Assembly: GCA_023382385.1 (NCBI GenBank)
Contig: JAHDVH010000001.1
Coordinates: forward strand, 429,611-493,610
From: a bacterium
GTDB taxonomy: Bacteria > Electryoneota > RPQS01
Reading direction: 5' to 3'
DNA length: 64,000 bases
Under the pieces are notes generated by a model. The model saw nothing but the letters and a program-made list of their open reading frames with translations. It made no database searches and was not told the origin of the DNA. Positions 32,538-43,681 of this stretch are shown here, in pieces. Position 1 is the first letter of the stretch; the number at the start of each line of letters is the position of its first letter. A program made the translations under genes and the position numbers.

Positions 32538-32611
32538 GCGCCCATAGCTCAACTGGATAGAGCATCAGCCTTCTAAGCTGAGGGTTCCGCGTTCGAGTCG
32601 CGGTGGGCGCA
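32538..32611 (+). tRNA. tRNA-Arg (TCT anticodon); integration target
   Basis: Acceptor GCGCCCA / TGGGCGC, anticodon stem TCAGC / GCTGA with loop CTTCTAA (anticodon TCT, codon AGA), T-arm CCGCG TTCGAGT CGCGG. CCA is not encoded. From the anticodon stem onward it is duplicated at 43635, so the element integrated here and rebuilt the 3' half; the gene remains intact. Confidence 0.97.
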
Positions 32612-32614
32612 CAT
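32568..32614 (+). repeat. attL: direct repeat in tRNA-Arg
   Basis: A 47-bp sequence exactly repeated at 43635-43681, starting in the anticodon stem. With one mismatch on either side of the terminator stem-loop the similarity runs to 32645 (78 bp, two mismatches), so the terminator was copied too. Confidence 0.95.
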
Positions 32615-32617
32615 CGT

Positions 32618-32645
32618 AAAAACAGGTATTTAGGTGCCTGTTTTT
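32618..32645 (+). terminator. terminator of tRNA-Arg (element-borne copy)
   Basis: Stem AAAAACAGG / CCTGTTTTT, loop of 10 nt, then T. Duplicated at 43685-43712. Confidence 0.85.
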
Positions 32646-32698
32646 GTGTTTTTGGGTTCGACGTAAGTTCATTATTTAGGTATTAATTCGGATAATTT

Positions 32699-32713
32699 GT
32701 TCTACGGTAGAAC
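32699..32713. promoter_or_regulatory. palindrome near attL
   Basis: GTTCTAC-G-GTAGAAC, a perfect 7-bp inverted repeat about 85 bp inside attL. It could be an integrase/excisionase arm site or an operator. There is no T run, so it is not a terminator. Confidence 0.35.
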
Positions 32714-41452: not shown

Positions 41453-42504
41453 CCTCGCGTTGGATGCTTTTCACTCTCTGCTCGTTGTCAATAAGTAATG
41501 TATTGGCGCAGATAACCATCACCGAATCAAGTTTAGCTGGGATTGGAACTTCGTTAATTCAGCACGGTACGGGCGGAGTGGTTCCCATAGACGTTGGACT
41601 ACCGGGTGAAAATCAAACATGGGACCTTTCGGATCTTGGATTTCAGTATGCGTGGGGTAGTGACATCATAAGCCCCGAGGGGACACCTTTGGGGGAGCTT
41701 ATTCCGGACGCTGACTTCTGTCGTCGCGATGAACAAGCAACGGGATTCATAACTTACTATTTCCGCCGCGATCCGGGCCAACTAATAGCGGTGGGAAGCG
41801 TTAGCGGCTTAGAGGACACAACAGCTTATCCGTATGACCCTTTTGGCATTGTGCTACCACTTCCACTTTCATACGAAACGCCGACGTGGACAACCTTGGT
41901 TGAGTACTACCTGGAGTTCGACCCAGGATTCGGTGTCACGTTTCGAGATAGTGTGGTGAAAACTGTCGATGGATGGGGTTTGTTAATCACGGAATATGGC
42001 ACTTTTCAAACATTGAGGATGTTCGTCCATTCCTGGGGCATTATGACTCTGACGGGAATGCCTGCAGATACATTCGAGGGTGTTTCATATGAATGGCTGG
42101 ATGTTTATGGCAACAGACTTGCATTGGTTGGCTCAATCGATCCAGATCCCGAATTCGAGATGGGATATGCAGAGATCGCTGAGGTTGTTAATATCGTTGC
42201 TGTTGAGTACGTGAGTCCCGTAGTAATCGATCATGTTCTTTTGCAGAATTATCCAAATCCGTTTAACAGTAGCACACAAATTGTCTACAACTTGCCAAAC
42301 TCGGCGCACGTTTCCGTGGTTGTGTACGATCTGCTTGGGCGCGAAATCATATCTCTGTCAGAGGGGCCACAGCAGATTGGCAGTCACCGCATTACGTGGG
42401 ACGGACGTGCAGCAGACGGATTGAGTGTTGCCTCCGGAGTCTACGTGTACCAAATCAAGACCCCGAACTTCACAGATGCGAAGAAGATGGTGCTGATTAG
42501 GTAA
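41449..42504 (+). CDS. secreted protein with T9SS sorting domain, 351 aa
   Basis: A signal peptide (MLFTLCSLSISNVLAQ) is followed by a beta-rich domain of about 230 residues of a type often seen in FCB surface proteins (WDLSDLGF, then YPYDPFGIVLPLPLSYETPTW). The C-terminus is a sorting domain starting NYPNPFNSSTQIVYNLPN and ending KKMVLIR. The ATG overlaps the previous stop by 4 bp (ATGA). Function unknown. It precedes the integrase by 24 bp. Confidence 0.75.
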   Translation: MTSRWMLFTLCSLSISNVLAQITITESSLAGIGTSLIQHGTGGVVPIDVGLPGENQTWDLSDLGFQYAWGSDIISPEGTPLGELIPDADFCRRDEQATGFITYYFRRDPGQLIAVGSVSGLEDTTAYPYDPFGIVLPLPLSYETPTWTTLVEYYLEFDPGFGVTFRDSVVKTVDGWGLLITEYGTFQTLRMFVHSWGIMTLTGMPADTFEGVSYEWLDVYGNRLALVGSIDPDPEFEMGYAEIAEVVNIVAVEYVSPVVIDHVLLQNYPNPFNSSTQIVYNLPNSAHVSVVVYDLLGREIISLSEGPQQIGSHRITWDGRAADGLSVASGVYVYQIKTPNFTDAKKMVLIR

Positions 42505-42528
42505 TATGAATACCGTTGCATTTTAAGC

Positions 42529-43611
42529 ATGTCGTCCCTCTACAAGCGCAAACTAAAGAATCGCACAGTCTGGTACGTAAATCTCAAGCTTGCCAACGGC
42601 AAGCGCAAGAGCATTAATACCGGCTGTGAAACGAAGACGGCGGCCAAAGATGTAGCCGCCGAATTTGAACGCAAGATACTGCTCGGCCTCGATCCGCTTC
42701 CGAAGAACTCGGCACGTGGGCTTTTGCTAAATGATGTTTCAGCAGAGTACCTGCGGGACAGACGCGAAGCTTGGGGACCACGCACTAGTGTTTTGCACGA
42801 GCATTCGCTCATGCTCCTCCAGAGGGAAATCGGAAACTTGTCCGTAGTAGAAATCGGTGAACAGCAGGTAGCAGCGTATACCGCTGCAATTCGGACTGGA
42901 CGTTCACCTGCTACGGTCAACATTGACTTGCGGAACCTCAAAGCCTTTCTGCGGTGGTGTAAGAGTCAATACAAACTGACGAATTGGGATCCGCCACGGA
43001 TCCGGCAGCTTAGGCCGCCAGAGCGCCAACACAGGGATTTCTACACCATATCCGAGGCCGAAGCACTTGTTCGCGCCGCCACCGCCATTGAGATCAATGG
43101 TGAATCGTTCGGCCGATACATTGCCATGTTACTGCTGACGGGAATGCGCATGCGCGAGGCTCTGGGCCTGCGATGGGCGAACATAAGCCAAGTCGCTGGC
43201 GTACTCACGCTCTCCGGGACAAAGTCTGCGAGACCTGAATCCTTACCGATAACGCGGGAGCTGTCTGCCCTCTTCAATTCATGGCAAGAACGGCCCGAAG
43301 CAAGGCCGCTGTTCGGCTTTTCAGCTTGGTCTGGACACATTACTACTTGTTGGAGACGATCCGTTCAGAACGCAGGGATCAGGCCCCTGAAGCTTGATAA
43401 TTGCCGAGACACCTACGCCGTGAACTTGCTATTGGAAGGGATTCCTCTTGCCGTTGTGAGCCGCTTACTCAGGCATTCCAGCATCACGGTCACGATGCAG
43501 AACTACGCCGGTTTTAGCACCGAAGACTTAGGTCACGCTTTAGAAAATGAAAAACCCCGCCAAGAAAGGGGGGCATATTTCACCGCAATACTACGGGGCC
43601 TTCACAACTGA
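42529..43611 (+). CDS. int: tyrosine-type site-specific integrase
   Basis: A 360-residue recombinase. The N-terminal arm/SAM-like DNA-binding domain covers about residues 60-160. Catalytic residues: Arg207 (LTGMRMREALGLRW), Lys232 (GTKSARP), Arg293 (DNCRDTYA), His316 (LLRHSSITVT) and the nucleophile Tyr326 (MQNYAGF). The first His of the usual HxxR is Asp290 here. Its stop is 23 bp from the right direct repeat, the usual place for an integrase beside its att site. It should recombine attP with tRNA-Arg. Confidence 0.93.
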   Translation: MSSLYKRKLKNRTVWYVNLKLANGKRKSINTGCETKTAAKDVAAEFERKILLGLDPLPKNSARGLLLNDVSAEYLRDRREAWGPRTSVLHEHSLMLLQREIGNLSVVEIGEQQVAAYTAAIRTGRSPATVNIDLRNLKAFLRWCKSQYKLTNWDPPRIRQLRPPERQHRDFYTISEAEALVRAATAIEINGESFGRYIAMLLLTGMRMREALGLRWANISQVAGVLTLSGTKSARPESLPITRELSALFNSWQERPEARPLFGFSAWSGHITTCWRRSVQNAGIRPLKLDNCRDTYAVNLLLEGIPLAVVSRLLRHSSITVTMQNYAGFSTEDLGHALENEKPRQERGAYFTAILRGLHN

Positions 43612-43634
43612 TTGTTTTACATATTTCTATGCAC

Positions 43635-43681
43635 GCCTTCTAAGCTGAGGGTTCCGCGTTCGAGTCGCGGTGGGCGCACAT
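43635..43681 (+). repeat. attR: tRNA-Arg 3' fragment
   Basis: Exact 47-bp copy of 32568-32614, lacking the tRNA 5' half, hence not a functional tRNA. With two mismatches the match continues to 43712. Confidence 0.95.

Follow-up and report, generated by a model that had tools for sequence, protein, structure and literature searches.

A tRNA-Arg island that is very probably a defective prophage with a cassette of type IX-sorted proteins

The window, the 64,000-nucleotide stretch of bacterial DNA analysed here, contains an island bounded by a direct repeat of 78 nt (97% identical, two mismatches), whose copies lie 11,067 bp apart start to start. The exact part is the first 47 nt, which is far beyond chance. 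The first-pass annotation had described this repeat pair, a left copy that completes a tRNA-Arg, a right copy that is only its 3' fragment, and an integrase next to attR; repeat comparison, ARAGORN and Pfam bore out all of this (Table 1). It had also suggested looking for an empty tRNA-Arg site in relatives, and we saw one in two genomes. G002, from the same genus, keeps the order AAG-type glycosylase, tRNA-Thr, tRNA-Arg and tRNA-Leu (minus strand) with no integrase. The gap between tRNA-Arg and tRNA-Leu is ~2 kb there, ~0.9 kb in G001, where smpB follows, and ~0.6 kb in the source genome (G000) once the island is subtracted. The tRNA-Arg of the window is therefore an occupied integration site. 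Between the island and tRNA-Leu lies a dispersed repeat of up to ~240-300 bp (window ~43980-44280); many further copies, 76-99% identical, are scattered over the genome.

Table 1. Features of the island and its matches to prophage B. Positions in B refer to the joined pieces L009+L010+L011.
Feature	Window	Strand	Position in B	Remarks
tRNA-Arg(TCT)	32538..32612	+		integration target, completed by left att copy (ARAGORN)
attL	32568..32645	+		47 nt exact, 78 nt with 2 mismatches
Lysis-end match	32619-33622		6373-7368	
99-aa lysis-end gene	32823..33122	-		aa identity 90% to B, 52% to G002 phage, 36% to G006 phage
Tract identical to B	33025..33594			570 bp
177-aa lysin-like remnant	33124..33657	-		C-terminal 167 of 531 B codons, 98.8% aa identity
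Deletion junction	33623..33681	.	left flank B big:7368 (C1:912367), right flank B big:37387 (C1:942386)	
Match right of junction	33682-33792		37387-37497	
103-aa HTH regulator, excisionase/Cox-like	33701..34012	-		82% aa identity to G002 phage HTH
HTH/repressor region match	33971-34551		37901-38481	
Tract identical to B	34002..34332			331 bp; divergent control region and DNA-binding (N-terminal) half of repressor
117-aa HTH_3 repressor	34182..34535	+		85% aa identity to B
141-aa protein	34742..35167	+		not recognisably shared with B
66-aa gene match	35159-35360		39089-39290	
66-aa conserved gene	35164..35364	+		left edge of cargo slot; directly precedes int in G002 phage
Cargo leader match	35420-35585		39769-39939	
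Cargo leader/signal peptide remnant	35514..35585	+		shared with B cargo gene 1; holds 20-mer 35560-35579
629-aa secreted metzincin-like protease	35677..37566	+		HEFGHALGINH ... CVM
301-aa secreted TPR-like partner	37548..38453	+		
999-aa protein	38453..41452	+		beta-propeller, beta-helix, helical repeats, Por/type IX sorting tail
351-aa secreted protein	41449..42504	+		Por/FlgD-like sorting tail
Last cargo codons and integrase N-terminus match	42430-42696		47542-47808	
Tyrosine integrase	42529..43611	+		PF00589, E 7e-14; intact length; beside attR
attR	43635..43712	+		tRNA-Arg 3' fragment and terminator copy

All island genes are still open, including those of the control region, the cargo operon and the integrase. 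ORF and protein-family annotation of the island found no relaxase, terminase, portal or capsid gene, no replication gene among the ORFs, and none of the relaxase or conjugation families of integrative conjugative or mobilisable elements. The absence of relaxase, replication, capsid and portal genes reported at first pass thus stands, but phage genes are present: a tailed-phage lysis end, with a truncated lysin-like gene, makes up the left arm.

When the source genome was searched with the island, the island's ends were found again 30 kb apart at C1:911,372-952,807, within a 42.5-kb element flanked by a 42-bp att repeat in tRNA-Glu. This element, B, is a tailed prophage, since it encodes a terminase large subunit, portal, head morphogenesis protein, tape measure, tail completion protein and RecE-like exonuclease. 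Collinear matches to the island are confined to B's two ends, and a protein-level comparison found nothing in the island from the B body (7,369-37,386), so that roughly 30 kb with the recombination, terminase, portal, head and tail genes is missing. The flanks of the junction are separated by 30,018 bp in B, and the ~60 bp at the junction itself matched none of the four phages compared. The lysin-like gene is cut at this point, where the lytic body is absent: the last 167 residues of the 531-aa B protein are fused in frame to 10 foreign codons at the start. Its family had no match in Pfam, PHROG or phage records, the truncated form had no viral relatives in our searches, and the AlphaFold model (pLDDT 47) was too weak to use; the label 'lysin' is tentative and comes from gene position.

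Two tracts of the island are identical to B, in surroundings of 60-85% identity, which indicates recent recombination between the island and B, or between their parents. The lysin-like remnant lies in one of them. The other spans the divergent control region and the DNA-binding half of the repressor, and the island and B should therefore recognise the same operators. Outside the identical tracts, the 99-aa gene (dS ~0.3), the C-terminal half of the repressor, the 66-aa gene and the integrase N-terminus are diverged but still homologous to their B counterparts, and they follow one another as in B.

The integrase is a chimera. Its first ~55 residues are 98% identical to the B integrase, while the remainder is of another type, similar to that of a third prophage in the source genome (44-45% overall), a pattern that would fit a cassette swap changing the target tRNA. 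Searches of genome-contig and viral-contig databases gave no named relatives. The histidine of the HxxR motif has a known role in tyrosine recombinases. An alignment of 21 integrases showed Asp at this position only in the island protein and His in 20 of 20 relatives; the other catalytic residues are present. We predict from this substitution that activity is probably reduced. Without the HxxR histidine excision is doubtful, and the Asp suggests that the island may be unable to excise.

The third prophage is of a different type (G000:C1 ~26-42.4 kb, L052) and encodes a tail protein, a methyltransferase, an 883-aa primase/helicase-like protein, an integrase and a lysin-like protein 30% identical to the island's fragment. 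We had suspected a third short island at C1:32-42 kb and rejected it, as the region belongs to this other phage type.

Complete relatives of B were found in two more genomes. The G002 prophage (39.7 kb, tRNA-Asp, 53-bp att) is collinear with B, with TerL 78% identical, and has the gene order shared by the island and B. The G006 prophage is more distant (TerL 49%, tRNA-Pro); its 45-bp att links contigs C494 and C148, and the G006 contig is JAHIZR010000228.1 of MAG Modern_marine.mb.187. TerL relatives occurred in only 3 of the 39 genomes of the phylum searched, the best match among named phages was 34% identical, and the family appears to be undescribed. The suggestion at first pass that the island might represent a new family was not supported, as both its ends are those of this family of tailed temperate phages, which has complete members in B and in the G002 and G006 prophages.

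Between the 66-aa gene and int, the cargo slot of the island holds four overlapping genes. The 629-aa protein has an HExxHxxGxxH motif and a Met-turn, and no viral relatives of this metzincin were found. The model of the 999-aa protein is confident for the beta-helix and moderate for the propeller, with NHL propellers as the best PDB matches. The host genome encodes SprA, the type IX translocon, and the cargo may function as an exported protease with surface partners. The same slot carries two large sorting-tailed proteins in B (547 and 2031 aa) and is almost empty in the G002 phage, where the 66-aa gene and int abut.

The pairing of integrase and cargo, which the first-pass annotation had suggested looking for in other genomes, does recur. 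The metzincin, TPR and 999-aa genes stand in the same order in the G006 prophage (36/25/41% identity), on the opposite side of attP, flanked by att and the 99-aa lysis gene. In G002:C6 and G003:C25 the cassette adjoins an integrase accompanied by ThiF/ThiS-like genes. G001, G005 and G009 have it too, and no element enclosing it could be delimited in these three genomes. The G001 operon adjoins a tmRNA-integrase pair but, being 5' of the tmRNA, is probably outside that element. G009 has a second, partial copy (L111, G009:C92, 9960-13720) in which the TPR gene is duplicated and the 999-aa gene is represented by its start alone. The integrase-ThiF islands form a family with the order integrase, ThiS-like, 366-aa and ThiF-like genes, followed downstream of ThiF by type IX-sorted secreted cargo (L108 and L123 in G002:C6 and C26; L122 in G003:C25; L137, G000:C5:152001-172000); they lie next to tRNA-Asp in G000 and tRNA-Lys in G003, and PRTRC_ThiF matches are below the curated cut-off.

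The cargo leader shared with B contains a 20-mer, TGAAGCGGGTGGGGTTCGCG, which encodes LKRVGFA and is conserved at the DNA level in the leaders of many different secreted proteins. There are 13 copies in the genus (window 35560-35579; G000:C1:944913; C5:166178; ten in G002) and none in nine other family genomes. We considered whether it could be a recombination site of mobile elements; this was not supported, as several copies start ordinary chromosomal secreted-protein genes.

Very probably, then, the island is a defective or 'grounded' prophage that has kept its immunity and lysogenic-conversion genes. A temperate tailed phage of this family has its ends, with att sites, in tRNA-Arg at this locus, and the parts retained are the lysis-end gene nearest att, the final third of the lysin-like gene, the divergent HTH/repressor control region, the 66-aa gene and the integrase. 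Such a layout would be expected from one internal deletion of a family phage. We propose that a single deletion of ~30 kb removed the phage body, and such a deletion, rather than a novel way of moving, would be why no transfer module is found. The repressor would stay on, silencing the adjacent early promoter and giving immunity against superinfection by B-like phages, a prediction made from the complete identity with B of its DNA-binding half and of the control region. The cargo operon would be expressed as a conversion trait, with the tailed products exported by the host type IX system; both immunity and export are read from sequence. Unable to build or package particles alone, the island would be inherited vertically and move rarely or no longer. 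Against this reading, a satellite that still functions, or a deletion that happened very recently, would also fit the fact that all genes are open, and the ~60 bp at the junction match no relative, which leaves the exact parent phage unseen.

The concept of grounded prophages, known from DLP12, e14, Rac, CPZ-55 and Qin of E. coli (PMC6379469), fits the island. Like these, it is an att-bounded remnant with lytic genes deleted and a repressor and cargo kept; it has a phage-type integrase and genes homologous to and collinear with those of an intact phage, and the essential lytic and structural genes are missing or broken. Damaged recombination function and immunity to the parent phage are both expected of such elements. 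Unlike them, it resides in an uncultured lineage with type IX secretion, its cargo consists of secreted sorting-tailed proteins, and a complete relative is present in the same genome. The accessory operon between lysogeny control and int resembles prophage morons and other lysogenic conversion loci; it differs in that its cassette is a type IX-sorted one of metzincin, TPR and propeller-helix proteins.

The main alternative is a prophage-derived satellite that lost its lytic genes, is mobilised by B and senses B induction through the shared operator/repressor specificity. Several features would suit this: the island is small, its att sites are intact, it has int and divergent regulators, and its control region is identical to that of a full resident prophage. 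The size, the regulators and int are shared with PICIs (PMC6092414), as is the lack of structural genes. However, PICIs combine an integrase, a replication module and a master regulator, along with packaging or interference genes and induction by a helper. The island has no replication gene, and no packaging, redirecting or interference gene was recognised in it, with neither a terS-like gene nor any match to the B terminase region found. It also retains phage lysis-end genes, one of them truncated, and the att sites of its family are prophage sites. The minimal PICMI satellites, which have alpA, int, a primase and a fis site (PMC10803314), are similar in their reduced gene content and lack of capsid remodelling; the island differs in having no primase and in sitting in tRNA-Arg rather than fis. 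The catalytic His of its integrase is replaced, and no second copy of the layout turned up in 11 family genomes or in the viral contigs scanned with the integrase. With none of B's replication, terS or packaging sequences left in the island and a broken lytic gene still there, we consider a satellite of B improbable. A still mobile island, derived from its helper's own lineage, synchronised with B by the identical operator/repressor module and spreading a type IX-secreted protease cassette between cells, would be equally so.

It is very improbable that an independent integrase island acquired its phage ends by recombination with B while resident. The two identical tracts in a diverged background do indicate recent exchange, and the integrase core and HTH are not B-like. 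But the genes beyond those tracts are diverged homologs in B order and the HTH is of the G002 phage type, so the whole backbone is phage, not just the exchanged parts. An assembly artefact joining two prophage copies, which the 331-570 bp tracts common to the island and B on one contig might bring to mind, is scarcely credible: the island has an att pair and a tRNA to itself, its backbone is diverged, its cargo is unique, and the host genes around it are syntenic with G002.

Cryptic prophages are already known as a kind of element; the interest lies in the metzincin/TPR/propeller-helix cassette. It occurs in a prophage, a gutted prophage and integrase-ThiF islands of one bacterial family, which suggests that type IX-secreted proteins are regular mobile-element cargo in this family. 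A search of open-licence papers found no report of type IX-sorted cargo in prophages. The island illustrates how a cassette for secreted proteins can outlast the phage that carried it, here in a host lineage with no described phages of the B/G002/G006 family, and it makes lysogenic conversion via type IX secretion a testable idea.

The relatives of B carry other genes near the repressor. Directly after it, the G002 prophage encodes a 271-aa HSDR_N-like protein (L056:703-1518, G002:C15), possibly a defence gene. The slot between repressor and int of the G006 prophage (L058, G006:C494, 1-3034; L057, G006:C148, 1-11628) holds a DarT/DarG pair and a type II CRISPR-Cas locus with an array, Cas2, Cas1 and a 1008-aa Cas9. 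The array breaks the assembly, and a shared repeat as well as the tRNA-Pro att links both contigs. The CRISPR spacers had no match within 6 mismatches in B, the G002 phage, the third prophage or the island. A temperate phage with a full type II CRISPR-Cas system merits separate attention.
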